A stretch of DNA of 64,000 bases from Armatimonadota bacterium (GTDB lineage Bacteria > Armatimonadota > Zipacnadia > Zipacnadales > JABUFB01): positions 620,001 to 684,000 of the forward strand of contig JABUFB010000008.1 of NCBI GenBank assembly GCA_013314775.1, written 5' to 3'. Below the pieces are notes generated by a model that saw only the letters and a program-made list of their open reading frames with translations, made no database searches and was not told the origin of the DNA. Position numbers and translations under genes: made by a program. The first letter of the stretch is position 1; each line of letters begins with the position of its first letter. This document shows positions 30,916 to 59,335 of the stretch, in pieces.

Positions 30916-31528
30916 GCCACGCACCTCCCACCTGACTGCGTGATTACATAGGTCAACGCCTCGTCACTGCCATATATTTACGACAATGGCCACGGGCACT
31001 CCTGCGGCCATCGGCTCATTCGGCAGGCACTAACCGCTGACAGGGAATGCGAAGAAAAAGCCGCTGCAAGGTTTCCAGGCAGTGGACAGGTCTTGCTGTA
31101 TCCGTTGCAGCTCATTACAGTGGGGGCCGTGCAGGCGTCGGAAGGATTCGGGAGGTCTGTCCCGGCTCGGGTTCGGTCCGGAACTCAGGCGCAACGTGGG
31201 AGAAAAACACGTCTTTGGCCGCAGGTCGGTGTCTGCCATCTCTCATGGCCACAGGGATAGCGACGCCCCGTTTTCGTGCTGCAGAGACCGCTTCCAGGCC
31301 GATGAGAATGGTCCCGCGCTGTGCAAAGCGTATCGCGCTGGAGGGATGGCGACGGCGCAGAGACGCAGCGACACGGGGCATGTTTGAGTTCTGCAGGCAT
31401 CTGCGCGTCGTCTATCGTTCTCCGGAGCGTGTCTGGACTTGCCGCGATCGTGCTCTCTTTGTTTGGCATGAGTTCCGCCGGCCCGATGGTCCTGTAATCT
31501 CGCCAGCGGGCTTCTTGCCTCACAGCCC
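30916..31528. other. Intergenic stretch without recognisable gene
   Basis: I see no convincing gene in these 613 bases. Frames on both strands have low-complexity Arg/Ser compositions, no ribosome site and no family motif. The first 100 bases should hold the promoter of the 28636-30915 gene, but no clear pair of hexamers was found. The stretch could contain decayed sequence. Confidence 0.45.
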
Positions 31529-31725
31529 GCGAAGCGGGCGGCACCCTACAGCCACGGGTGGAGTGGAGCGAAGCGGAACGGAACCCGTGGACTCGGCCCA
31601 GTCCGGACCGCTTGAGCCCCCGAGGGGCGACAGAAATGATGATAAGCCGGGCAGTTGTGCTGCCCCTGCAGGGGCTTTTGGGTGGTTTTCGGGTGACGTT
31701 GTCCTGGGGCTGCGGCCCGCTTCGC
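31529..31725. repeat. REP-like palindromic element with inverted 11-bp ends
   Basis: The stretch is bounded by GCGAAGCGGGC (31529-31539) and its exact inverse GCCCGCTTCGC (31715-31725). Inside are several inverted repeats: CCACGGGT (31552-31559) with ACCCGTGG (31583-31590), GCCCC/GGGGC (31616-31628), and a perfect 14-base palindrome GCCCCTGCAGGGGC (31662-31675) followed by TTTT. No coding capacity is evident. The pattern resembles the non-coding palindromic elements spread through planctomycete and verrucomicrobial genomes. A related end occurs again at 33614. Confidence 0.6.
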
Positions 31726-31995
31726 AGGATATAAGGTAACGGTGTCGTATCTTTTTGCCGCGAACACCCGAGGACAGAGATGAGGCCCCGGCGCGACCGA
31801 ATCCAGTCCTTTTCCAGGAACGCACCCATTGACAGACTCGGACCCGCTCTGGGCCAGGCAACGCTGGAATTGGATTTCACAAAGAGTTGCCTCAAGGGGT
31901 TCACGCTACGTCTCCGACAGCGCCCAAATCATGACCGCCAAAGCGCCCATCTGCCGGGTGGGTCTGCTGACTACTCCTGCGCTGGAGGTGCCACG

Positions 31996-40521: not shown

Positions 40522-40764
40522 GAGAAAACAGCACCTTTCGGAACGGCCATTGCGCGCTATCAGCGGAGGTGTGGTGCGCGTGAATACGCGCGGCAGTGAC
40601 TGCCGTGAGAAGGGGGTTCGCCGAAACTGCCGATTGACCCTTGGTGGCTCGACGGCCATCCTGCGCGCACACCTGGGAGGCAGGTGACGCCTCGTCAAGC
40701 ATTGAATGTATGCAGGGGAACGCTTCACGCGGCCAGGACGCGCCGCGTCTACTGGTGTGTGCAG
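40522..40764. other. Divergent promoter region, no clear elements
   Basis: The 243 bases between the PcRGLX-like gene and the zinc-finger gene must contain both promoters. I found no convincing pair of promoter hexamers, no palindrome and no small gene. Confidence 0.4.
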
Positions 40765-41826
40765 ATGAACCAGCATCAACACGACAGCACCGGCTCGCTT
40801 GCCGACAAGACACGCAGTCCCTGGCCGGCGCGGATTACGGGGATCCTGACGGCGATCGCAATTCTCGCGATCCTTCTCGTAATCTTCATGCCGAAAGAGA
40901 GGCCGGAACTAGACCCGCAGCCACGGGGGCCAGCCACGCAGGCTGGAACCGGGGAAGAGTTCGCAGCCAGTTCATCGGTGCAGCAGATAGCGCCGCAGAT
41001 GCAGACCGCCACACGGGACCGTGCGCCCGCGTCCAGCACTCCCGGGCCCACACCGGCGCAGGCTCCCGCGCAGATGCAGACACCGCTTCCCCAACCGCAG
41101 CCCACGCCGGAGCCGAACACGCAGCCTGCTCCGCAGACGGTCCCCCAACCTGTGACCCAGCAAACGCCGCAGCCGCCTCCCACGCCTGTCTCCACACCTG
41201 CGCCGCAGGCGGCACCCGCTCCACAGCCCACCCCCGCTCCGCAACCGACGGCAGCTCAGGCGCCGGCGCCAACGCCTCAGCCGAAGCCTGTTCTCGCTGC
41301 GCAGCCGTCTCCCGCTCCAGAGAGCTCGGTCTCAACCCGGGCGCGCTCCGACAACGGTGCGTCTCAAAAACAGGCAACGGCACGCGGTACGACGGGCCAT
41401 GCGCAGACCCCTTCAGCACCTGGAAGGCCTGCGGTATCTGCACCGACAACAGCACAGGCTCCGCGCCCGGAGAGCACTTCCTTGCGCGGAGAGGCGACGA
41501 TACCCAGACCTCAGCCGCAACGCACACCTGCTCCCATTCCGCAGACCGGGCAACGAGCATCCGCGCAGGCAGGACAGACAGGCCCCATATACGCCATATG
41601 CCCGACCTGCCGTGGGTACGGCGTCACCGCATGTCCGTACCCTGCCGCGATGCACACCCGGGACGGCAGGCTCATGCACCCCGAGGCGGTCGGATTGCCC
41701 CAGAATGACGAGTTCGCCCGGGAGTTGCGGGAGGACTTGACCGGGGGCATCTGCCCCCACTGCCGGGGCACACTGAGAACCCGCTGCAGGACCTGCGGCG
41801 GCACGGGGAAGATCCGGGTGCGGTAG
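40765..41826 (+). CDS. Membrane-anchored Pro-rich protein with DnaJ-type zinc-finger tail
   Basis: This 353-residue protein has an unusual layout. A short charged N-terminus is followed by one membrane helix at about residues 24-42 (ITGILTAIAILAILLVIF). Next is a 200-residue linker very rich in Pro, Gln, Ala and Thr. The C-terminal 80 residues carry CPTCRGYGVTACP, then CPHCRG and CRTCGGTGKI, which are CxxCxGxG-type elements like the zinc-binding middle of DnaJ. There is no J domain. The topology suggests the zinc finger is held far from the membrane. Its role could be holding unfolded protein, binding metal, or assembling a complex; none is shown. The ATG at 40765 is chosen because it starts a sensible N-terminus, although no good ribosome site is visible. 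A secreted protein follows 49 bases later. Confidence 0.75.
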   Translation: MNQHQHDSTGSLADKTRSPWPARITGILTAIAILAILLVIFMPKERPELDPQPRGPATQAGTGEEFAASSSVQQIAPQMQTATRDRAPASSTPGPTPAQAPAQMQTPLPQPQPTPEPNTQPAPQTVPQPVTQQTPQPPPTPVSTPAPQAAPAPQPTPAPQPTAAQAPAPTPQPKPVLAAQPSPAPESSVSTRARSDNGASQKQATARGTTGHAQTPSAPGRPAVSAPTTAQAPRPESTSLRGEATIPRPQPQRTPAPIPQTGQRASAQAGQTGPIYAICPTCRGYGVTACPYPAAMHTRDGRLMHPEAVGLPQNDEFARELREDLTGGICPHCRGTLRTRCRTCGGTGKIRVR

Positions 41827-41875
41827 TCGCTGCGGAACTATCCGGACGTCGACCTGTACCGGAGGCCGAAAACTG

Positions 41876-43240
41876 ATGCAACCTGTTCCCCTCGCGCTCA
41901 TGCTCGTTCCGCTCTCCGTCCCCAGCATCGTGCTCGCTGATCCACAGCCGCCTTCCTACAGCGGCTTGAGCGTCATCGAGAACGGGGTCATCCGGCTGGG
42001 GGTCAACCTGGACATTGGTGGCGCGATCACGTGGATGTCCCTGGCGGGTAGCGAGGACAATGTGATCAATAGCGCCGACTGGGGGCGGCAGGTGCAAATG
42101 TCTTTCTACTCCGGCCCGAACCCTTTCACGCCGCAGGGCGTGGAGTACAGCGAGCACTGGAAGGGGCTGGGCTGGAACCCGATCCAGTCGGGGGACTGCT
42201 ACGGGTTTCGCTCCCGGGTCCTTGAACACACCAACGACGGGCGCGCCATCTACACGAAATGCATCCCCATGCACTGGCCGCTGAAGAACTACCCCGGCGA
42301 GTGCACTTTCGAGGAGTGGATCACCCTCGATGGCCCAGCGGCCGTCGTGCGCTGCCGGCTCAACAACCAGCGCCCGGACAAGACCCAGTACCCGGGCCGA
42401 GACCAGGAATGCCCCGCGGTCTATACCAACGGACCACTGTACCGATTGGTCACCTACTCAGGGGACAAGCCCTTCACCGGAGATGCGCTTCGCGAGATCA
42501 TCCCCAAAGGCGCCACCAGCGGGTTATTCCCGTGGACCGGCTGGACCGCAACGGAAAACTGGGCGGCGCTTCTGCGGGATGACGACTTCGGGCTGGGCGT
42601 TTGGAACGAGGGCGCATACCGGACTATTGGTGGCTTTGCTGGTAAGCCCGGCAAAGGCGGCCCCGGGGACGGACCCACCGGGTACATCAGCCCCCTGCAT
42701 GTGGATATTCTGGACTGGAACATCGTGTATGAGTACAACTACGTCCTGATTCTCGGCGACATTCAGCAGATCCGGGAGTACGTCTATCAACACGCGAAGC
42801 GCCCTGAGCCACCCAACTACGTTTTCGAGAAGGACCGACAGCACTGGACATACGTGAACGCGACAGACACGGGCTGGCCGATCAAGGGGGAGCTTCACGT
42901 GCTGCCGGGCGATAGCGATCCGCAGCTGCTGGGGCCGCTGGGGTTCTGGAATGCCGAAGAAGCGCCGGTCCTGTACATCCGCGCGGCATATGCGCCGGGC
43001 TCGGGACCTGCCGAGGTGTTCTTCTCCACCTCGGAAGCAGGCTTCGGGCCGGAGCGGAGCGCGCGTTTTGACACGCTCCCTGACGGCAGATATCACACCT
43101 ACGCTGTGGATCTGTCCACCTGCCCCGGCTACCGCGGCAAGATCACTCGCCTGCGGTTTGACCCGGTGGATTCCGGGGGCGAGGGCCTGTGGGTGAAAGT
43201 GAAATCCATCGGATTTCGGGAGCCGGAGGGCACCGACTAA
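41876..43240 (+). CDS. Secreted beta-sandwich protein of unknown function
   Basis: This 454-residue protein has a signal peptide ending in SIVLAD. It then reads as a beta-rich enzyme or binding domain: GLSVIENGVIRLGVNLDIGGAITWMSL and ENWAALLRDDDFGLGVWNEG resemble galactose-mutarotase-like supersandwich domains found in lyases and glycosidases. The last 130 residues look like a second sandwich of CBM type (VLYIRAAYAPGSGPAEVFF, YHTYAVDLSTCPGYRG). I could not assign a catalytic motif. GGAGG lies 10 bases before the ATG. It follows the zinc-finger protein by 49 bases and may share its transcript. It converges with the LamG gene across a palindrome-rich gap. Confidence 0.72.
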   Translation: MQPVPLALMLVPLSVPSIVLADPQPPSYSGLSVIENGVIRLGVNLDIGGAITWMSLAGSEDNVINSADWGRQVQMSFYSGPNPFTPQGVEYSEHWKGLGWNPIQSGDCYGFRSRVLEHTNDGRAIYTKCIPMHWPLKNYPGECTFEEWITLDGPAAVVRCRLNNQRPDKTQYPGRDQECPAVYTNGPLYRLVTYSGDKPFTGDALREIIPKGATSGLFPWTGWTATENWAALLRDDDFGLGVWNEGAYRTIGGFAGKPGKGGPGDGPTGYISPLHVDILDWNIVYEYNYVLILGDIQQIREYVYQHAKRPEPPNYVFEKDRQHWTYVNATDTGWPIKGELHVLPGDSDPQLLGPLGFWNAEEAPVLYIRAAYAPGSGPAEVFFSTSEAGFGPERSARFDTLPDGRYHTYAVDLSTCPGYRGKITRLRFDPVDSGGEGLWVKVKSIGFREPEGTD

Positions 43241-43258
43241 CGATCACGGACGCAGACT

Positions 43259-43310
43259 GACAGCGCTGTCGCCGGCACCGGGGAGCGGCGCGCGATGCGT
43301 GCCGCCCCCC
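43259..43310. terminator. Palindromes between convergent genes
   Basis: GACAGCGCTGTC (43259-43270) is a perfect 12-base palindrome. Next to it GGGGAGCGGC (43280-43289) can pair with GCCGCCCCCC (43301-43310) with one mismatch. Both lie in the 107-base gap between two convergent genes and could end transcription from either side. Confidence 0.35.
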
Positions 43311-43347
43311 GGGCACCCCGGAAAGCGGAGGCATTCCTGCCGTCCCG

Positions 43348-46300
43348 TTACTTGCTCGGCCGCCAGTCAGGCATGGGCACCGGCGTTGTCTTCACGGGCC
43401 ACGAAGCCCGGTACGTGTCCTCATAAAGGCCGATCTCATCGAAGGGGATCGGCCGGAAGCCAACGGTCGCGAATGCCGGCGCGTCGGGTTTCAGGCGATA
43501 GTCTTCCGTGGCGGCGTCCACAAAGCCCGGATCGGTTTCGCCGAACTCCCCGTTCTCGACCAATTCCAGGTTGGCACGGTTACCAGTGACCATTGGACCG
43601 CACCGGTAAAACATATTCCGCCAGACGAAGTTGATGCCCGGCTCATCCATCATCGTCGCGATTTTCGGGTAGCGTTTCAGGTACAGATCATTGGTGTAGT
43701 AGTCAGGCGCGGGGTTGCCGTTGCGGATCCGGTTCCACACCGAATTGCCGGGGTAGTACCCCCCGCTGATCCCCTGCTTGCAGTCGATGAACAAGTTGTT
43801 GTCAATCACATTGTCGCGACCGCTGTTCATCTGAATCGCACCGAAATTGCCGTTGGCGCCCCGAATGAACACGTTCCCGTAGACCAACATCCCGCTGATG
43901 GCGTCGTCGAAGCGAATCGATGCTTGCCCGTGCACGGCCGCGCCAGGCTTGTCCTTTCCGCAATTGGTGAAACGGTTGTAGCGAAACACTACACCACGAT
44001 AGGTGGGGTTGGCAAACAGCTCCATCGCGCCCTGGTCGTCAGACTCTCTCACGGCGCTGTGCACTTCGTTGTACTCGATGATGTGGTCATTCCCCTCGAT
44101 GCGCATGACGCTGCTGGGACAGTTGTACATGAGATTGTGGGCGACGCGATTGCCCACGCCCTCAAGCTGGATTGCCGGCGTGTATGTGCGGTCAATGCGC
44201 CCAAAGTTGTGGATACGGCAGTTCACCACGAAATGCCTGCCCGGCGTGAGCGTAGCGCGGTCGCCGCCGATGACCTCGGTGGCGCGCCGGCCGATGGTGT
44301 GCACGTCGCACCCCAGCAGCCCGTTGCCCTCGCCGCCGGTGATGGTGATCCCGTTCCCGGCCAGGCGGCTCACCGTACACCCGGCGATCAGGCAGCGGCT
44401 GCAGTCCCTGAGGATCAACCCGTGGTAGCGCCCCAGATCGAAAGTCAGGCCCTCGAAACGCACGTCGGTCACATTGTCCATGGTGACCATGGGCGTCGAT
44501 AGCATGCCGATCTCCACCTTCGCGGTGGCCAGGTCAGTCGGAGGGTAGAGATACAGGATGCCGGTGTCGCGGTCCAGATACCACTCGCCCGGCTGGTCGA
44601 TTTCTTCCAGGAGGTTGAAGGCGTAGTACACGATGCCCTGACCCGTATGCATTCCGGGTGGGCCGTACTGGTAGGCTTCATTGCAGATCACGGTGCGTGT
44701 CTCCGGGTCGATCTTCGAAACGCGGATGGTCGCGTCTGCCCACAGGTACCGGAAGTAACCGAAAAGCCAGGGATCCTCGGCCCGGGTCCAGCGCTCGTGG
44801 CGGTCGTCGATGTACTCGAAGATCGAGGGCTTGCCTTCGGCGCGATTGCCGGGCTCCACCAGCTTCGCTATGCCCACGAAGCCTTCATTGGGCCATCGCG
44901 CGAGGGTCATGGGTTCGCCGTCCACGAACAGCTCCAGGGTCGGCGGGGACGGCGGCTGGCTGAACCCGCGCACCGCGAGCTTGCCGAAGTCTTCAATGCC
45001 CTGGGCCGGAAGATCGCAGGCGACCACTTTCCCCCGGGCCTCCTCGGGTATGCGTTCCAGAATTGCCGGGTCGGTCACTGTCTCGAAACCAGAAATGCGC
45101 GTACCGCCGTAAAAGGTGACTTTGCCTGGCACTGTCGCGCGGTACACGACGGGGGCGTCCGGCTTGCCGGAATCCTCTCGGGTAAGTGCCAGCGGCTCGG
45201 TGACCCGGTACTCTCCTGGGCGGATGCTCACGGCAATCGGCCCTTCGGTGCCACTGGCCCTGAGCTCTCGCACCCGGTCCCGCGCCCGGGCCAAAGTTGC
45301 GAAGGGTCTCAGGCCTGTGCCGTCGCCGGTGTCGCTGCCATTGGGCGCGACGTACACATGCGCCGCGAACTCATCTATGGGCGCGATCCGAGTGCGACTG
45401 GCCTCCGGGTCCCTCGCCGGGAGACCTCGCGCAACCCGGTCAAGTTCCGCCACCATTTCCCTCGCTTCGGCGCGGTGGACGTCGGCACATTCGGCGCTGT
45501 CTGCGATCCCCTGATACTCCGCGCGGGCAAGATCCGGTTTCCCCTCGGCGACATAGCTCTGGGCAATGCGCAGACGAGCGTAGCTGCGCAGGCCTTCGGA
45601 CACATCAGGCGACTGTACAACGGCGGCGCAGGCGGCGCGGACCGCGGCGAAATCGCCGGCGGCCCAATCAGCGTGGGTTTGGGCGAAGGCTTGCATGAGC
45701 AGCTCCCGTCTCTCGGCGGCAGCCGCTTCGGGCGACTCGACCGCGCCGAAAGTGTCCTTCAGGCGGGCAAACTCCGCCTTGATCTCAGCACGCGGGACCG
45801 CGCGGCGGTAGACCCGCACCTCATCCATGAGACCCCAGTAGTTGTGCCAGCCGCTGCCCAGGGTCAACTCACCGCCCAGCGAGAAGTCTCCGACGAACGC
45901 AGGCGACAATGCTGTCGTGCCCTGGCTATAGCCGTTGACATAGACCTCCACCGTACGCTTGTCACGGTCGCAGACCAGGGCCATGTGGGCCCACTCGTCC
46001 AGCTTGAGTCCGGTGGCCGCCGTGCCACCTGCCGAGACAATATTGCCCGCTTCATTCTTGTAACAAAAATAGTAGCCAGGCTGACCTGTGTTGAAGATGT
46101 CGATGACCAGGTAGGCATCGGGATACACGCCGAAGGCGAAGATACGCCGCTGATTCTGGCGGTCCTCGATGGCAAACTGCTTCGGCTTCAGCCATGCGCT
46201 GAAAGTCCAGGACCCTTTCCCGAAGCGCAGGTTCTGGGGAATCTGGACGCGCGCGACACCCGCGGCTTGACCGTCGAAAGACAGGGCCGTGCCGACGGGT

Positions 46301-46476
46301 GAGTCGGTCCAGGCAGCAGTTACGGTTGCGTTCAGGCCGTTGTCTGACGAGTCGGCAGCGACATTGCCGGCGCCCTCGTCGAAGGAGTAGTGCAGCAGGA
46401 GCCCGTCCTGGGCCCCGGCGCATCCGCAGAGACCAACAACGGCGAGCAACAGCACGGGCGTATACCTGTTCAGCAT
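43348..46476 (-). CDS. LamG-domain lipoprotein with GH141-like right-handed beta-helix
   Basis: This 1042-residue exported protein probably acts on a complex polysaccharide; GH141 includes a fucosidase and xylanases. The signal sequence ends in a lipobox-like VGLCGC, so it is likely lipid-anchored. Residues about 25-225 form a LamG/concanavalin-like domain (LHYSFDEGAGN, WTFSAWLKPKQF, MDEVRVYRRAV). A helical spacer at about 235-355 follows. Then comes HVYVAPNGSDTGDGTGLRPF with ATLARARDRVRELR, RPGEYRVTEPLALTREDSG, GGTRISGF and LELFVDGEPMTLARWPN, the GH141-like signature, and a long beta-helix (GNGITITGGEGN, IRNGNPAPDYYTND). Gene orientation is divergent from the sulfatase unit. The GH141 assignment is by motif memory only. 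Confidence 0.8.
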   Translation of the reverse strand: MLNRYTPVLLLAVVGLCGCAGAQDGLLLHYSFDEGAGNVAADSSDNGLNATVTAAWTDSPVGTALSFDGQAAGVARVQIPQNLRFGKGSWTFSAWLKPKQFAIEDRQNQRRIFAFGVYPDAYLVIDIFNTGQPGYYFCYKNEAGNIVSAGGTAATGLKLDEWAHMALVCDRDKRTVEVYVNGYSQGTTALSPAFVGDFSLGGELTLGSGWHNYWGLMDEVRVYRRAVPRAEIKAEFARLKDTFGAVESPEAAAAERRELLMQAFAQTHADWAAGDFAAVRAACAAVVQSPDVSEGLRSYARLRIAQSYVAEGKPDLARAEYQGIADSAECADVHRAEAREMVAELDRVARGLPARDPEASRTRIAPIDEFAAHVYVAPNGSDTGDGTGLRPFATLARARDRVRELRASGTEGPIAVSIRPGEYRVTEPLALTREDSGKPDAPVVYRATVPGKVTFYGGTRISGFETVTDPAILERIPEEARGKVVACDLPAQGIEDFGKLAVRGFSQPPSPPTLELFVDGEPMTLARWPNEGFVGIAKLVEPGNRAEGKPSIFEYIDDRHERWTRAEDPWLFGYFRYLWADATIRVSKIDPETRTVICNEAYQYGPPGMHTGQGIVYYAFNLLEEIDQPGEWYLDRDTGILYLYPPTDLATAKVEIGMLSTPMVTMDNVTDVRFEGLTFDLGRYHGLILRDCSRCLIAGCTVSRLAGNGITITGGEGNGLLGCDVHTIGRRATEVIGGDRATLTPGRHFVVNCRIHNFGRIDRTYTPAIQLEGVGNRVAHNLMYNCPSSVMRIEGNDHIIEYNEVHSAVRESDDQGAMELFANPTYRGVVFRYNRFTNCGKDKPGAAVHGQASIRFDDAISGMLVYGNVFIRGANGNFGAIQMNSGRDNVIDNNLFIDCKQGISGGYYPGNSVWNRIRNGNPAPDYYTNDLYLKRYPKIATMMDEPGINFVWRNMFYRCGPMVTGNRANLELVENGEFGETDPGFVDAATEDYRLKPDAPAFATVGFRPIPFDEIGLYEDTYRASWPVKTTPVPMPDWRPSK

Positions 46477-46640
46477 GGGCGTCTCCCTTCGAGCGTCACG
46501 AGTTATACGTTCCTATTCCCCGCACAGGCCGACCAGACCTGCGTGTCCGGGAAGGCCAGGGATGCGCGGACGGTGAACTTGCATTTGTCCGGCAAGAATG
46601 CGTTCGATGACCTCGAAACTATGCAAGCCCGGAGTAACTC

Positions 46641-48035
46641 ATGGACCGCCCGAACGTATTGCTCATCACCACCGACCAGCAGCGGTATGACAGCCTCTCC
46701 TGCAATGACGCCCCAGTGGGGCGAACACCTCATCTGGACACCATGGCCGCGCGGGGAGTCATCTTCGACCGCTGCTATCTCCAGAACCCGGTGTGCGTCC
46801 CGTCGCGCGCATCCCTGCAGACCGGCAAGTATCCCCACCAGCACGGGGTCCGGCATATGGAGGACAGGGTCGATGCTACGCCCGGACTGGCCGAATCTGA
46901 GTTGACCGTCCACGAACGCCTGCGTGAGGCCGGCTACCACACGGCAGCGTTCGGCAAGATCCACATGATGCCCGATCGGGGCTTCGACACTATGCAGGTC
47001 ACCGGCGGCAAGGGCGCCCGGTGGACCCAGAGCACCGGGCTGCCCATCGGACCCGGTCCGCTCGGGCCACAGTACGCGGCGTGGCTGGAGAGCCGCAATC
47101 CCGGCAGCTACGAGCGTATCTACCAGGAGCGCCGCCGCCCCGAATACCGGCAGTTCGGCACCGCGCTGCCCTTCCCGTTGCCCGCAAGCGAACACGTGGA
47201 CAGTTGGATCGGCGGTAATGTAGTTGAATTCCTGTCAAACCCTCCGGCAGAACCGTGGTTCGTGTGGTGCGGGTTCACCGGCCCTCATGGGCCGCTGGAT
47301 GTGCCGCCGGAGTATCTGGATCGTTACTCCCCCGATGACATGCCCGAGCCCCTGGACTGGACCATCGACCTGCGCGATCGCTGGCCGTATCGCAAGCGTT
47401 CGCCCAGGGCCGGAACGGAAGCCGAGATGGCGAATGCGCGGCGATGGACAGCGTATTACCACGCGCTGCTGGACCTTATCGACGACCAGGTCGGCCAAAT
47501 CATCCAGTGCATGGACCGGCGCGGACTATGGGACAACACGCTTGTGTTATTCACCTCTGACCACGGCGAAATGCGCGGGGATTTCGGCCTCTACGGGAAG
47601 GGCAGCTTCCTCGAACCGATCTCGCGCCTGCCCGCATTCATCGTCCCGCCGGGGAGCCGGGAGGGGCGACGCTTCGCGGGATTGGTGGAGATGTTCGACT
47701 TCGCGCCCACGATACTGGACTACACCGGCGTGGCGATCCCGGAGGGTATGTCCGCGCGCAGCTTGCGCGGCGAGATTGAGACCGGCGCCGGAGGGCGTGA
47801 CTGCGTTTTCGGGGAGCACGTGGACAACAGCCGGCAGTGGGGCGGCGTCTACTGCCGCACCGACACGCACAAGCTTGTGCTCTGGTCCAGTGATGATGAT
47901 GGCGGCGGGGAACTGTACTGCCTCCAAGAGGACCCGCTGGAACGGGTGAACCGCTACGCGGACCCGGCATTGCGTGCGGTGCGGGACGAACTGCAGGCGC
48001 GGATCATCGCGCGCGGCGTTACGGCGCGCGGATAG
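46641..48035 (+). CDS. Sulfatase (type I, formylglycine-dependent)
   Basis: This 464-residue enzyme would hydrolyse sulfate esters of sugars. The N-terminus RPNVLLITTDQQRYDSLS holds a metal-binding Asp. NPVCVPSRASLQTGKYPHQHG contains the C-x-P-S-R signature in which Cys 52 becomes formylglycine. FTSDHGEMRGDFGLYGKGSF is the second metal-site motif, and the C-terminal subdomain is present, so length is normal. No signal peptide is visible; family members often act in the periplasm, so location is unsure. A maturase is needed and is not in this window. CGGAG lies 6 bases before the ATG. The GH29-like gene follows after 23 bases, which suggests one operon for sulfated fucose-type glycans. Confidence 0.93.
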   Translation: MDRPNVLLITTDQQRYDSLSCNDAPVGRTPHLDTMAARGVIFDRCYLQNPVCVPSRASLQTGKYPHQHGVRHMEDRVDATPGLAESELTVHERLREAGYHTAAFGKIHMMPDRGFDTMQVTGGKGARWTQSTGLPIGPGPLGPQYAAWLESRNPGSYERIYQERRRPEYRQFGTALPFPLPASEHVDSWIGGNVVEFLSNPPAEPWFVWCGFTGPHGPLDVPPEYLDRYSPDDMPEPLDWTIDLRDRWPYRKRSPRAGTEAEMANARRWTAYYHALLDLIDDQVGQIIQCMDRRGLWDNTLVLFTSDHGEMRGDFGLYGKGSFLEPISRLPAFIVPPGSREGRRFAGLVEMFDFAPTILDYTGVAIPEGMSARSLRGEIETGAGGRDCVFGEHVDNSRQWGGVYCRTDTHKLVLWSSDDDGGGELYCLQEDPLERVNRYADPALRAVRDELQARIIARGVTARG

Positions 48036-48058
48036 CGAGAACAGGAGAGTGGCCACTC

Positions 48059-49063
48059 ATGGCCGAAACTGATGCGGGGGCCGGAGACCAGCGCCTTTCC
48101 GTCGCAGCGCTGCAGGCGTGGGAACAGCTGGGCTTCGGGATGTTCATCCACTTCGGCCTGAGCACTTTCGTGGCGAAGGAGCTTCCATCGGGGAACGATC
48201 CATCAACCACGTACGCTCCGGACCGCCTCGACGTGGACCAGTGGATCCAGGTGGCGCGGGATACAGGGATGAAGTACGCGGTCCTCACCACGAAGCATGT
48301 GTCCGGTCATTGCTTGTGGCCCAGCGCCCAAACCGACTATCACGTGGGCACAAGCGGAAACACCACCGACGTCGTGGATGCCTTCGTCACCGCCTGCCGG
48401 CGCCACGGCCTCATGCCGGGGTTCTACTACTGCTCCTGGGACAACCACCACCGGTTCGGTTCGCGCACCTGGAGCGACCTGCTGCCCGGCGGTCTCGTGG
48501 AATCGCCCCGGGTGGACTTCCCCGACGTCCTGCGCACAGCCGCTGATGCGGGCATCAATGAGGGCAACATGTTCTTCTGGACCTTTGGTGCTGGACACGG
48601 GATCATCGAGTACTTTGACCTCACCGGCAACGAGCAAGTCCGACAGGCGTTAGTCGCCACTGCTGACGATGCCCTGGCTGACGGGCGCATCGGACTGCGC
48701 CTGAAGGCGGTGGCATTCGCTGCGCGGCATGCAGACGACCCGGCACCTTATCGTGAGGCGATCCGCGAGTGGGCTGAGGGCGAGGGACGCAGGTCTTTGT
48801 TGCAGATCGTGCCGCACAATGCGGAGTACTACTCCGGCCCGCGCGCCATGCTGCGCGGATCAACTCCGGGCGCGCTGTTCACCATGAACGACCTGCCGTA
48901 CGTGATCGGCCTGATCGACGCCGACCCGCCGATGGATGACGAACTGCGGCGCATTGATGAGAGCGGCGGGCCATTTCAACCCGAGCCTACGCTGAGCTGG
49001 CAGTCGGAGTATGACCTGCCCGAGTTCGAAGAGTATCTGCGAATCAGGCATCCCCAACCGTGA
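48059..49063 (+). CDS. Chimeric protein: GH29-like N-terminus joined to unrelated helical C-terminus
   Basis: This 334-residue protein begins as a GH29 alpha-L-fucosidase: WEQLGFGMFIHFGLSTF, MKYAVLTTKHVSGHCLWPS, HVGTSGNTTDVVDAFV and GLMPGFYYCSWDNHHRFGS. After about residue 135 similarity to GH29 stops. The rest (VDFPDVLRTAADAG, GNEQVRQALVATADDALADG, REAIREWAEGEG) reads like the helical end of a toroid-type enzyme. GH29 proteins normally have 400 or more residues, and the barrel part with the nucleophile Asp is missing. The usual KHHDGF is also KHVSGH. It may be a deletion fusion of two neighbouring genes, an assembly error, or a genuine new combination. It is probably inactive as a fucosidase. 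The start codon follows the sulfatase by 23 bases with AGGAGAG upstream. Confidence 0.65.
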   Translation: MAETDAGAGDQRLSVAALQAWEQLGFGMFIHFGLSTFVAKELPSGNDPSTTYAPDRLDVDQWIQVARDTGMKYAVLTTKHVSGHCLWPSAQTDYHVGTSGNTTDVVDAFVTACRRHGLMPGFYYCSWDNHHRFGSRTWSDLLPGGLVESPRVDFPDVLRTAADAGINEGNMFFWTFGAGHGIIEYFDLTGNEQVRQALVATADDALADGRIGLRLKAVAFAARHADDPAPYREAIREWAEGEGRRSLLQIVPHNAEYYSGPRAMLRGSTPGALFTMNDLPYVIGLIDADPPMDDELRRIDESGGPFQPEPTLSWQSEYDLPEFEEYLRIRHPQP

Positions 49064-49077
49064 ACGCGGAGGCGAGG

Positions 49078-49853
49078 ATGATGAACGCGGCAATCAGCTT
49101 CGCCCTGGCGACCGGCCTGGTTCTCTGCTGTCTTCCCGCCGGGGCGCAGGAACAGTGGGCACACCCGGAATGCAGATACCGCACCGAGATCACGGGGCCT
49201 GAGCCTGCGCGGGACGCCGCGCAGAAACTTGCGGAAGTGGCGGCCGACTTCAGCGCAATACTTCGCGAGGCAGGCATTGAGGGCGCCTTCGACCCAGCGT
49301 CGCTCAGGCTTGTGGAACGCGGCTGGGACCTGCCCTTTGCCTTCCGCACTGAGTACGACCCGCGCCGCGAGGTATCGTATCTCGCGTGACAATGCAACAG
49401 CCGTCCCGGTGAGACACCCGCCTGCACCATGTACTTCGATACCACAGATCGCAATCTGCGTCCCGCGCCGACTGGGGAGACAGCATTGCCTCCGGAAAAC
49501 CTCCTGCGTAATCCGGGGTTTGAGGATGCCCGGAACAATCGCCCCGCGGAGTGGGACGTCAACTCGCCGGCTCTGGTCAGCCTGGGTTCGTGGACTCGCG
49601 GTCAGGGCGAGCGGTCGCTCCGTATCGCCGTGGATGAAAACACTCCTGCCGACGCCGAACGCGTAGTCATTGTGTCCCAGAGCGTGGATCTGTCGCGCGA
49701 CGCGGGGCAGGGGAGCACTCTCTTTCTCTGAGAGCGCAGAAGGGCGCATTCTTCGACTGCCTCACTGTTTTACCGGCCACCGATGCAGTGGACGGCGCGG
49801 CCATGAACCTCTTCCAGAACTGGAACTTCGCACCGTGGCAACTGCCTCTGTAG
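49078..49853 (+). pseudogene. Broken secreted-protein gene (at least two frame disruptions)
   Basis: A good start (GGAGG before two ATGs) and signal peptide (ending PAGAQE) lead into YRTEITGPEPARDAAQKLAE and then hit a TGA at 49387. About 40 bases on, the same frame resumes with TMYFDTTDRNLRPAP, ENLLRNPGFEDARNNRPAEW and RSLRIAVDENTPADAERVV, then stops at 49731. The sequence continues in another frame as LSLRAQKGAFFDCLTVLPA and MNLFQNWNFAPWQLPL, ending at 49853. At least one lesion near 49385-49430 and one near 49715 are needed. The intact form would be an exported CBM-containing protein. Sequencing error is the alternative. It lies 14 bases after the GH29-like chimera. Confidence 0.6.
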
Positions 49854-49908: not shown

Positions 49909-51336
49909 ATGCGGATGCCCGCCTTCTCGACCATTGTCACCCTCGCGATTGCCGCAACCGCCTGCGCTGCGCCGACCTTCACTGACCGGTCTGCCGACCT
50001 CGGGCTGACGATCCCCAACGCCGCCGCGTGCTGGGCCGACTTCGACAACGACGGATGGGCCGATCTGTGCGCCGGCGGGATCGTGTGGAAGAATAACGGC
50101 GGCACATCTTTCAGCAAGCTAGCGCAAGGCTTCGGCAGTTGTGTGGCTGCCGACTTCGACAACGACGGCTTTGTAGACCTCTTCTCGTGGTCAGCGCTTC
50201 AGGTCTACCGCAACGATCGTGGCAAAGGCTTCGTGTCCATCGACATGCCCGACCATCCTGCGTGCGTCTCTCGTGGCGCTTGCTGGGCGGACCTCAACGC
50301 AGACGCCTTCGTTGATCTGTACGTGGGAGGATATGAAGATTGGAACGCCGGCATCACCTACCCCGACCTGGTGCTCATGAACGAGAGCGGCAAGTCCTTC
50401 CGGCTGGCACGCACCGATGAGCGCTACCGCGCACGGGGTGTCACCGCCGCCGACTTCGACCAGGACAGCGACCTGGACGTCTACGTCTCCAACTACCGCC
50501 TCCAGCCGAACGTGCTGTGGATCAACGATGGCACGGGCAATCTTCAAGACAAGGCCGCTGAGTTCAATGCCCTCGCCACCTCGCCGGGATTCAGCGGCGG
50601 ACACTCTATCGGCTCTGCGTGGGGCGATTTCGACAACGACGGCGCCATCGACCTGTTCGCCGGGAACTTCGCCCACGTGGACAACCGCGGTGACCAGCCC
50701 AAGTCCCGGTTCCTGCGCAATCGCGGCCCGGAAGCAGGCTACGTGTTCGAAGACCTTGGGACCTGCGGCGTTTTCTACCAGGAGTCCTACGCAAGCCCGG
50801 CAGCCGGAGACTATGACAACGACGGCGACCTGGACCTTTTCTTCACAACGGTCTACGCCACCGCATCCTTCGGGCGCAAGAACAACCCTGTTCTCTTCCG
50901 CAACGATGGCGGGTTCGAGTTCGGCAATGCCACCACGGAGGCGGGCCTGCCGGACCTGGGCTCCACCTACCAGGCCGCCTGGGCCGATTTCGACAATGAC
51001 GGGGACCTGGACCTGACCACGTCCGGCCGCCTGTTCGTGAACGAGGGCGCGGAGGGTCACTGGCTCCGGGTTCGGGTCATTGGCGACGGGGAGAAGGTGG
51101 ACCGTTCCTCAATCGGGGTGCAGGTACGGGTGGTCACCGCCGATGGAGTCCGCACCCGGCAGGTTGAGGCAGGCACAGGCGAAGGCAACCAGAACGACCT
51201 CACGCTCCATTTCGGTTTGGGGGCGAACGCTGGTCCAGTGCGCGTTGAGGTGCTCTGGCCGGGCGGCCTGAGTCGCACGCTGGACCAAGTGCAGGTGGAC
51301 CGGCTGTTGATCGTGCGCGCCGAGGATTCACTCTGA
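49909..51336 (+). CDS. Secreted FG-GAP repeat protein with ASPIC/UnbV C-terminus (CRTAC1-like)
   Basis: This 475-residue exported protein has a signal peptide (ending ACAAP). A run of calcium-binding propeller blades follows: WADFDNDGWADLCAGG, AADFDNDGFVDLF, AADFDQDSDLDVYVSN, WGDFDNDGAIDLFAGN, AGDYDNDGDLDLFFT and WADFDNDGDLDLTTSG. The last 90 residues are an ASPIC/UnbV domain (WLRVRVIGDGEKVDRSSIGVQ, VRVEVLWPGGLSRTLDQV). Such proteins are common at the surface of environmental bacteria and probably bind proteins or glycans. It follows the broken gene by 55 bases and could belong to the sulfatase transcript. No ribosome site is obvious directly before the ATG. Confidence 0.88.
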   Translation: MRMPAFSTIVTLAIAATACAAPTFTDRSADLGLTIPNAAACWADFDNDGWADLCAGGIVWKNNGGTSFSKLAQGFGSCVAADFDNDGFVDLFSWSALQVYRNDRGKGFVSIDMPDHPACVSRGACWADLNADAFVDLYVGGYEDWNAGITYPDLVLMNESGKSFRLARTDERYRARGVTAADFDQDSDLDVYVSNYRLQPNVLWINDGTGNLQDKAAEFNALATSPGFSGGHSIGSAWGDFDNDGAIDLFAGNFAHVDNRGDQPKSRFLRNRGPEAGYVFEDLGTCGVFYQESYASPAAGDYDNDGDLDLFFTTVYATASFGRKNNPVLFRNDGGFEFGNATTEAGLPDLGSTYQAAWADFDNDGDLDLTTSGRLFVNEGAEGHWLRVRVIGDGEKVDRSSIGVQVRVVTADGVRTRQVEAGTGEGNQNDLTLHFGLGANAGPVRVEVLWPGGLSRTLDQVQVDRLLIVRAEDSL

Positions 51337-51523
51337 AGGGCCGTGGTGTGCAATAGGGCCACCAGAACCAGTGGGGGTGTGAGCTGCACGAGCCCCATTG
51401 GTGCCTGACGAGTGTCCCTCTCGCTGCCGTGTGCGTCTGAGCAGAGCCACGAGCCTGCCCTGCGATGAGAGGCGGCGCGACGGGCAACTTCGAGCCACTG
51501 CGCTCTCCTGGCTGGTAGGGAAG

Positions 51524-52483: not shown

Positions 52484-52663
52484 GATGCACCCCTCTTGCC
52501 CGTCGCTTCGTGATGAAGATCTGTTCGCGCCGGCAGGCGTCAGGACCTCCAGCGGGCACTGCCATCAAGAATCCCTTGAGACACCCTGAAGGATCGGAAG
52601 GAGAACAGGCGCAGGGCGGAGAATTACATAAGCGCCTTACTATTCCACAAGGAGGTGCACCCG

Positions 52664-56400: not shown

Positions 56401-56517
56401 GTTCCAGGCAGTGCCCGGATCGCCGTGAGATTGCTGGGCCCATGCGGGACCGGCCGCGAATGCGAGGGCGAGGAGTGCGTTGCGCACGGATACGTAGACG
56501 CCTTGTCTGGCGGTCAT
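53473..56517 (-). CDS. Secreted GH42-like (clan A) glycosidase, paralogue of 7879-11148
   Basis: This 1014-residue exported enzyme has the same domain order as the protein at 7879. A signal peptide ends at PAWAQQ. The rhamnosidase-N-like jelly roll contains PGWTSVDFDDSSWENC. The TIM barrel has GYHIATGIYGEWHLW, with the probable acid/base Glu, and GKLFIDEGDDRTYL, with the probable nucleophile. The GATase-like domain reads ELHRIGAPFDVLLLDDL. Compared with its paralogue it has an additional beta domain before the barrel (LEASIPGAIRAGEM) and a shorter C-terminus. The ATG at 56517 is chosen because GGAG lies 9 bases upstream and the signal peptide starts there. It follows the 56580 gene after 62 bases on the same strand, so one operon is likely. 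The substrate is unknown. Confidence 0.82.
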   Translation of the reverse strand: MTARQGVYVSVRNALLALAFAAGPAWAQQSHGDPGTAWNAYWVWGSENMHGGTGFFRLAFDVRGEVDSAILQGSGDDGYTLYLNGEELRRGGFGFNRTDRTDLTERLHQGRNVLAAVCNNAAYPGGWLAQLDILYADGTRQQVVSDERTRFHHREIPGWTSVDFDDSSWENCSTIAKPPAGVWGPLPLDYTGPRTRLKLLEASIPGAIRAGEMLAVSARVQMLEEPRDPVNISAIVDQEGLTLGELPQFEVPVGVWKAGQVVTIGPLSLPVTRYAPGGKAEVRLVLSRCRFEDGSDTIAREIEVAQRDTVPPAPAARVADYRGAPGLFLDDQPVPTMFYLQGRTPISAEYRQMADAGYRLFSVSIGMGWIGPDAYDYDAVDRQIIGVLRGAPEGYVVPRVDISAPSWWCDRFTGELITCADWTGWVDDGWGGTKHQSFASEKWRNEAGEALRRLIRHIQQSPYGDRVIGYHIATGIYGEWHLWSPGHLPDNSPPMRRAFIEWAREHYAGDLQELNIAWRTQLASFEEIQCPTQEERFSADLGVFKDLSVSRFVSDYWRALHETTVSAINHFCTIAKQTTDNRGLTGVFYGYLTDIGWPQEGGHLAASLAFDSPVVDFFATPHSYSHRALGEDGAFRAYPESIKLRGKLFIDEGDDRTYLAGDDGFNHVDGPEQTVAIMRREALNVLTARVGMWWFDMYAGWFNDPALLDTAREMRDLAERALEDERQGYAEIAVVLDPTNYYGMADWKTGTDALHLPLCNEQFRELHRIGAPFDVLLLDDLFRPGVRDYKCYVLLNTWCMTESRREELAHILHRPGKVAVFAYAPGFSSNRGLSVDHMRDLTGLQFQMSAGGGSMAARWQGYARQIPGIQPGGSWGPEKSMAPRFSPECDQEHLLAVWQDTGEPAAAFGEQAGWTSVYCGTGAIPAQLISWAARKAGCHLWTHPWTDGSAFYAGGGFFGIHTASAGERTFSLPWPARVTDAVTGKVILEEGIEFSENLPRWSTAIYRLEPAFGG

Positions 56518-56579
56518 GTCAGTGGCTCCAGTGATCCTTTTCTGACTGAACCTGTGCAGTCTGTGGTGCTCCGTCCGAG

Positions 56580-59201
56580 TTACCCCGGCGCGAAACGCTC
56601 GAAAGTCACGTTGTCCAGGTAGAATGTGCCGGCCGTCTGGCCGGAGCCCACGAAGTATACGCTGTCGCAGACGTAGAACCAGTCCGTCGCGTTGCGTAGA
56701 TCGGCGAAAGTCCGTGCCTCCTGCCCCTGCGGGGCGATAGTCAGCGAATACGCGGGGCCCCGCGTGCCCAGTTCGAAGTCCACCGTGTACCGGGCCCACT
56801 GCCCGGGCTCCAGGCGCGTGAGTTCCTTCCCGCCCACCGTCACCCGCCCGTCCCCGTATACGAACACCTGCGGCCCCGGTCCTTTACCCTCGTAACGCAC
56901 CTCCATCAGGCAGGTCGCCCCCGCATCCACCCGCAGGTCATACGTCAGCCGCGCGCGGCCTTTGCGGAAAGGCGCCACGGATCGGTGCAGGAAGGGCCAG
57001 AAGCTGGAGTCCTCGGTGTCCACGAAACGCAGACAGCGGGTCCCTCCGGCGGAAGTCTCGGCGGTGACATCCAGCTTCGTATCGCCGCGCACTTCCGGCA
57101 CCCAGGGCCGGGGCGGAGAAGCGCCGGGCTGCAGTGCCTCGAAGTCGTCGCTGAAGATCACGCCCCCGCGCTCATTCTCGGGGTGGAACGGGCTGGCGCT
57201 TGTAACGGGCCCCGGCGGCAACAGGTCGACCCGGCTGTCCGGGGGCAGGTCGAGAACGGCCGCAGCATGGGTCTGCAGAGCGCCCAGCGTGACAGTCAGG
57301 ATGCCGTTCTCGTGAGATGCCTTCGCCCCTGTAAGTGCCGGAACGCCCCGCACCGAGCCAGGAGCATCCGCGACCTTCACCCGCACCCGCACATTGCGCA
57401 GGGAGGGGTTCCAGTCGGTGTACTCCCGGGTATCGATGTCTCTGAGCATCCCGCGCACCCGTGCGCTCAGATCACACACATGCAGGACCTGCCGGTCGCC
57501 CTTGCGCCGCAAAGTGCACAGGACCGCGGCGTTCCCGGCGCCCTGGACCTCGTACGAGGGTCCCACCCCCAGGAGACCCAGCGCGGACGCCAGCAGGCCG
57601 TCATCCGGGTACCCCAGGTCGCCCACTGCGAGGTATGCCACCTTGCCCGCGCCCACGTCTCGAGACACCAGGCAGGGCCGCCCGTCCTCAAAGGCAGCAA
57701 GAGTCGCGGCGCCACCAAGCTCAACCGCAGCGCTCGAAGCGCCGTAGAATACCCGATCGCCGATTTCCACTGCGCACGGATTGCGCTCGAGTTCCCCACG
57801 CGACTGAAGTCCCAGGAACCGCAGCCCCTGTGCCTCATGTGCCGCAAGCCCATCGCCCGCAACCAGGACGATTCCGCCGGATTCGGCGAAGGCATTCAGA
57901 TGCGCCAGCGTCTCAGTCGCGAGTGCCCTGCCGCAGGGGATCACGACTACCCGGTAGGGCACCCCGTTCGTGCGCAGCGTCACCTCATTCACAAGGTCCA
58001 CGAACCACCGGTGTTCCTGAAGGCTCCGGGCGACATTCACCGGGGTCTCGGTCCGGGACAGGTTCCCCGCCCACGTGGTCTCGCTGTCCAGCACCGCGAT
58101 ATGAGCTAGCGAATGCGATGGCCCGGCGACATCCGTGCGTTCTCGGGCGAAATCCGCCATCTGCCGTGTCACCGCGACGGCGTGGGCGGTGATCGGGCCG
58201 CCGCCGAAGGTCCAGGCGAACCAGTTGCCCCCGTGGGCGAGAGTCAGCGCGCCCTCCTGGAAAGTGCTCTGAAGCGAGTACTCCCCCGAGAACGCGCGGG
58301 CGTCCGGGTTCTGGTAGCTCATGATGTCCCAGGGCGTCCGGGACTGCCCGCCCCAGCGCAGGCAGGTGCGGGCCACCTGCCCGACGTTCCAGGCATCCCC
58401 GCTGAGGGTGTCGGCGAACTCGGGCACCGGATCGGGCTCCCAGGCCCACGACCAGTTGCTGGTGTACATCGCCTTCGGGCTGGCCTCGTGGATCGCCTCG
58501 GCCACCAGCCGCCGGTACTCCTGATAGCGCCGGTAATGCCAGGCAGTCCACTTCTGCCAGTCCGGGGACGACTGCTCGCGAGGGACTTCCAGCCCTGTCT
58601 CGCGCTTCCATTCCCGGATGCATCGTTCGCACCAGCACGGGCGTGTGAGAATGTAGTCGCCGTCGAACCAGAAGCCGTCGGGGTCGTACTTGCGGATGAT
58701 CTCCTGGATCTGGGGGATGAACCGCTCGTACAGGTAGCCGTCCTTCTCGACGGTCGGGCGCTGGCACACGATGGGTTCGGCGTTGAGCGAAGGCTTGCCG
58801 TCCGCGCCGATCTGCGACCACTCCGGGTGCTGCGCGATGTCCAGCGGGCGGCGGTCCACGGACATGTAAATGCACAGCTTCAGACCAAGGCGGTCAGCCA
58901 CGGTCCTGAAGGTCCCCAGCACGTCGTAACCGTTTGCCGCCGGGTTGTTCAGGCCCACTTCGGTGGGATACGTGGCCTCGCGGTTGCTCTGGGCCGAGAC
59001 CTGGATCATAGTCACCGGGACGGTCCGCAGCATCTTGGTGATCTCGTCCACATCCTGGCCCTGAGCAAGAAGCGCGGAGTGGTTGTCGAAGTGGATGTTC
59101 ACCAGGGAATTGCGATACCAATCATTGCGGTCGGCGGAAGCCGTAGCGGCGAACAATAGCAGTATCAGGGCGCAGGCAAGCAGAGATGGCAGGGTGGGCA
59201 C
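56580..59201 (-). CDS. Secreted GHL6/GH29-like glycosidase with C-terminal CBM-like domain
   Basis: This 873-residue exported protein has a signal peptide ending in ATASAD. Its TIM barrel resembles the hypothetical glycosyl hydrolase 6/GH29-like group: NIHFDNHSALLAQGQDVDEI, KYDPDGFWFDGDYILTRPCWCERC and AMYTSNWSWAWEPDP. The Asp in WFDGD fits the nucleophile position of that group. A GATase-like trimerisation domain follows (VVIPCGRALATETLAHLNAF, ESGGIVLVAGDG). A jelly roll of about 190 residues closes the protein (VIFSDDFEALQPGASPPRPW). The GTG at 59201 has GGGAGGTCA 8 bases before it. It leads a probable two-gene transcript with the GH42-like gene. Family naming is tentative. Confidence 0.8.
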   Translation of the reverse strand: MPTLPSLLACALILLLFAATASADRNDWYRNSLVNIHFDNHSALLAQGQDVDEITKMLRTVPVTMIQVSAQSNREATYPTEVGLNNPAANGYDVLGTFRTVADRLGLKLCIYMSVDRRPLDIAQHPEWSQIGADGKPSLNAEPIVCQRPTVEKDGYLYERFIPQIQEIIRKYDPDGFWFDGDYILTRPCWCERCIREWKRETGLEVPREQSSPDWQKWTAWHYRRYQEYRRLVAEAIHEASPKAMYTSNWSWAWEPDPVPEFADTLSGDAWNVGQVARTCLRWGGQSRTPWDIMSYQNPDARAFSGEYSLQSTFQEGALTLAHGGNWFAWTFGGGPITAHAVAVTRQMADFARERTDVAGPSHSLAHIAVLDSETTWAGNLSRTETPVNVARSLQEHRWFVDLVNEVTLRTNGVPYRVVVIPCGRALATETLAHLNAFAESGGIVLVAGDGLAAHEAQGLRFLGLQSRGELERNPCAVEIGDRVFYGASSAAVELGGAATLAAFEDGRPCLVSRDVGAGKVAYLAVGDLGYPDDGLLASALGLLGVGPSYEVQGAGNAAVLCTLRRKGDRQVLHVCDLSARVRGMLRDIDTREYTDWNPSLRNVRVRVKVADAPGSVRGVPALTGAKASHENGILTVTLGALQTHAAAVLDLPPDSRVDLLPPGPVTSASPFHPENERGGVIFSDDFEALQPGASPPRPWVPEVRGDTKLDVTAETSAGGTRCLRFVDTEDSSFWPFLHRSVAPFRKGRARLTYDLRVDAGATCLMEVRYEGKGPGPQVFVYGDGRVTVGGKELTRLEPGQWARYTVDFELGTRGPAYSLTIAPQGQEARTFADLRNATDWFYVCDSVYFVGSGQTAGTFYLDNVTFERFAPG

Positions 59202-59335
59202 GGAAGTGACCTCCCGAAATAGACTGGAGCCGGTTCGAACGAACCTATTCCCCCGCACCTTGCAGGTCTCCTGCGAGCGCTGCTCGAAACCTTGTGACAT
59301 CCCAGGCATCGCGTCTTGCCACACGGAGGCTCCCC

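Follow-up and report, generated by a model that had tools for sequence, protein, structure and literature searches.

The open reading frame (ORF) at positions 48059–49063 (+) of the window, the 64 000-nucleotide stretch of DNA analysed here, is, as judged by sequence comparison, a chimera of a GH29-like 5′ part and the 3′ end of a LamG/PcRGLX-like (PL26-type) gene. The best explanation, which we consider probable, is that the chimera was made by a deletion and that its product is most likely an inactive remnant in a locus that is losing genes. The frame is uninterrupted and encodes 334 aa, as had been claimed in an earlier note on this DNA, which described it as a GH29 start followed by unrelated sequence. 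The switch is real, but it lies at residues 143/144 (nt 48485–48491) and not at residue 135. Of the origins proposed in the note, the fusion of two glycan-enzyme genes by a deletion is favored, as the two parents are separate and longer in a sister genome and the DNA between them is missing here. The sister is the Armatimonadetes MAG JAGPGE, the only genome of the same genus that was compared, and in it the two halves of the chimera are found on two separate contigs.

The N-terminal part of the chimera (48059–48491, +) covers ∼143 residues from the start of a GH29-like gene, as delimited by Pfam and by the alignment with the sister. The sole family match of the whole ORF is to the Pfam family Alpha_L_fucos (residues 50–132, profile positions 87–169 of 345, E 1.8e-21), and the ORF does not qualify as a GH29 member by profile, since that best stretch is the extent to which the catalytic domain is covered. 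Residues 1–144 are 93% identical to a GH29 gene of the sister (locus L022, 8001–8432), and the region from 40580 to 48491 of the window is collinear with L022 542–8433 at 86% DNA identity. In L022, the GH29 gene runs on beyond the break point, with a GH20 gene and two others downstream of it. Similar to GH29 alpha-L-fucosidases (PF01120), residues ∼10–143 of the ORF retain the conserved N-terminal stretch of the domain (GMFIHFG, TTKHV.GHCLWP, GFYYCSWDNH), whereas the rest, including the E-x-W-x-D nucleophile motif and the C-terminal strands, is missing. This motif (EVWIDIP and variants) is present in the sister and in 19 relatives, and its region is absent from the ORF, which bears out the claimed loss of the nucleophile part. 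The nearest solved relatives of this GH29 subfamily are PDB 3eyp and 4zrx. The sister gene itself is short and ends at 259 aa, compared with ∼310–340 aa in relatives from the subfamily. The window's genome contains 11 further GH29-like places, each matching just the first ∼138 residues.

The C-terminal part (48485–49063, +) corresponds to the terminal ∼190 residues encoded by a ∼1430-aa gene that combines LamG and PcRGLX-like domains, as indicated by the sister alignment and the Pfam domains of the parent. Residues 142–334 share 93% identity with the C-terminal end of a 1433-aa protein encoded at sister locus L021, and window positions 48485–49070 align with L021 5247–5832 at 88% DNA identity. 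The 1433-aa parent contains a LamG domain and a PcRGLX-like RIFT barrel, central beta sandwich and toroid (all three PcRGLX profiles match) and is related to PDB 5xq3. The chimera thus resembles PcRGLX-like rhamnogalacturonan exolyases (PL26 type; PF19501/PF21345/PF21346) in its last ∼190 residues, which are the end of such a gene, and differs from them by the lack of the RIFT barrel, the central beta sandwich and the matched part of the toroid; the N-terminal LamG domain of the parent is also gone. Searching species genomes with the complete protein yielded the two sister loci, L022 and L021. Residues 136–334 alone (199 aa) gave no match in Pfam or among PDB sequences. None of the RIFT barrel, central beta sandwich and toroid profiles matches this 199-aa segment, which therefore does not class as PcRGLX/PL26.

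Homology changes over from one parent to the other within 7 bp (48485–48491, +). The sequence of this junction, CCCGGCG, is identical to the GH29 parent and has one mismatch relative to the second parent. Counted per 10 bp, identity to one parent drops from 10/10 to 1/10, and identity to the other rises from 5/10 to 8–10/10. Repeats able to cause a deletion were sought at the junction, and none longer than ∼7 bp was found. The same fusion was looked for among 41 genomes of the order with a 67-aa query spanning the junction, which had a full-length match in the window's genome alone. It is scarcely credible that the ORF belongs to a conserved family that has this architecture over its full length and was missed by the libraries. 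Such a family would fit with the C-terminal half being covered by no Pfam or NCBIfam model, but this half sits inside longer genes in other members of the order, mostly in frames of 1440–1501 aa (besides these there are a frame of 1129 aa, a weak match and a 178-aa frame located at the edge of a contig), relatives of the N-terminal half from the same subfamily continue to a normal GH29 end, and no match spans the join. A new conserved architecture was rejected, as no homologue across the join was present in the genomes searched.

The genes on both sides of the chimera differ in their state. Directly upstream is an intact sulfatase of 464 aa (46641–48035, +; Pfam Sulfatase E 2.6e-45, full domain) with a CxPSR-type motif (CVPSR), which has 93% aa identity with the sister copy and a dN/dS of 0.076. 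The gene divergent from it (43348–46476, −), also conserved in the sister, encodes a 1042-aa LamG and beta-helix protein with a weak match to a GH141 insertion domain. Downstream of the chimera, the neighboring gene is broken, as the note had stated: from 49078/49081 on it is a pseudogene, disrupted by both an internal stop and an internal deletion. A tblastn search with the 1363-aa LamG protein that is intact in two genomes (G002 and G003) detected two remnants. The 5′ remnant (49078–49710, +) matches aa 13–212 of the G002 protein at 53% identity and contains an internal TGA at 49387, and the 3′ remnant (49707–49850, +) matches aa 1316–1363 (69% over 48 aa) in another frame (frame 2, versus frame 3 for the 5′ remnant). 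In all, aa ∼1–212 and 1316–1363 are retained, and ∼1100 codons are missing in between. This ∼3.3-kb middle part of the gene was found nowhere in the window's genome. In the sister, the same LamG gene is reduced to a 167-bp interval. Because the LamG gene is broken or shrunken in both lineages and the sister GH29 gene is short, gene loss at this locus is ongoing in both, which supports the decaying locus proposed in the note. The next gene downstream (49909–51336, +) is an intact FG-GAP/ASPIC-UnbV gene, identified with Pfam and present as in the sister (91% aa identity, dN/dS 0.099). Promoter and terminator scans and an Rfam search found nothing, and a literature search found nothing specific to this locus.

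The analysis, including the comparison with the sister, also drew attention to other parts of the window. At 40550–40580 there is a further break: the match to sister contig C366 stops at 40550, that to C652 starts at 40580, and at least ∼5.4 kb of additional DNA is present in the sister. At 51378–51491, the sister has 5.4 kb more (L021 7446–12891), with a 265-aa gene, a BNR/sialidase-like gene and a GH123-like gene, and apart from short matches this DNA is absent from the window's genome. At 56440–59260, sister contig C86 has ∼160 bp in place of 2.8 kb of the window. An interspersed repeat at 31515–31740, with a ∼48-bp core at about 31515–31562 and inverted arms, occurs at dozens of sister sites on both strands and has no Rfam match. 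The prepilin-like gene at 52655–53299 matches about 40 places in the sister genome with its first ∼175 bp and represents a large paralogous family.

The DNA that separates the break points from the remaining parts of the parents in the sister (6.2 kb downstream of the GH29 break and 5.2 kb upstream of the C-terminal part) was used to query the whole assembly of the window's genome, and DNA searches returned just pieces that are already within the window. Sister contigs C366, C652, C747 and C86 match the window in that order. A simple deletion would explain the chimera, because the intervening DNA is absent from the genome and the sister contigs align in the same order. The deletion, of at least ∼11.5 kb, would fit between C652 and C747, whose adjacency we infer from contig order; an overlap between the ends of the two sister contigs was sought and none was found. 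A reciprocal rearrangement or a swap with another contig was rejected, as the missing parts were not found in the window's genome. It is unlikely, though of some weight, that the join is instead an assembly misjoin, in which separate sites of the genome, or sequences of two strains, were falsely linked at 48485–48491 and the DNA between them was dropped from the bin. The genome (6.12 Mb) is in 37 contigs and 98.5% complete, and the window shows several further kilobase-sized differences from the sister, both of which would fit a misjoin. However, the window contains no N anywhere, the short repeat at the junction offers ∼7 bp at most, the missing pieces are on no other contig of the assembly, and the order along the sister contigs is preserved on both sides of the junction. 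In addition, no misjoin explains the premature stop in the neighboring gene.

In the deletion model, ends sharing at most 7 bp of imperfect microhomology would have been joined, placing codon ∼143 of the GH29-like gene in frame with the last ∼190 codons of the PcRGLX/PL26-like gene. Besides the 3′ part of the GH29 gene with its nucleophile region, the event would have removed the GH20 gene along with two others and, from the PcRGLX-like gene, ∼1240 codons. One simple deletion was presumably the sole event. The resulting product would most likely be an inactive, poorly folding remnant, in a glycan-utilization locus that is losing genes. Bacterial chimeric pseudogenes can arise through illegitimate-recombination deletions. 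The ORF resembles them in that two truncated genes are joined in frame at a very short similarity, the intervening DNA is lost and the adjoining gene has decayed as well, and no departure from the ordinary case was seen.

Structure prediction and substitution patterns bear on whether the product could have a function. The AlphaFold model of the chimera has a mean pLDDT of 43.8; in its GH29 part most values do not reach 50, and a helical stretch at about 180–245 is predicted with moderate confidence. An intact relative reached a pLDDT of 78.4 and a pTM of 0.82. Both models were built from 12-row alignments, but the rows for the chimera are split between its halves and are shallower for each, so the contrast in predicted confidence is supportive, not decisive, evidence against a folding product. 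Relative to the sister, dN/dS is 0.11 and 0.06 for the two halves and 0.075–0.10 for the adjoining intact genes, and the C-terminal part has four amino-acid changes on the window branch versus six on the sister branch, i.e. no excess on the window branch. These values would fit a recent deletion and are also compatible with selection on the fusion, so they do not discriminate between a dead and a functional product. That the fusion is a new protein with a function, such as glycan binding in a sulfatase operon, is very unlikely. The frame is open across the join (a one-in-three chance for a random join), both halves have kept the low dN/dS, and the gene lies close behind the sulfatase with an AGGAG-like stretch before its ATG, all of which would suit such a protein; however, neither half is a complete domain, the fusion is seen in one genome only, the GH29 part is modeled with very low confidence while the intact control is predicted to fold, and the surrounding locus is decaying. 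It is highly improbable that the ORF encodes a newborn protein that is expressed and under selection, with the helical PcRGLX-like end and the start of the GH29 barrel together making up a novel unit that binds glycans or acts as a scaffold for the sulfatase locus. The new binding protein offered as an option in the note is without support, and we infer that the product of the deletion-made chimera has no function.

The chimera appears to be a case of recent, ordinary gene decay, with no sign of new function and no wider consequence. It illustrates how a deletion can leave behind, as a by-product, a frame that is open and well behaved, and automatic annotation would likely label this ORF an alpha-L-fucosidase despite the lost catalytic part. 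The comparison with the sister documents the stepwise loss of a glycan-utilization locus in one genus, for which the nearest named relative is an Armatimonadetes MAG.
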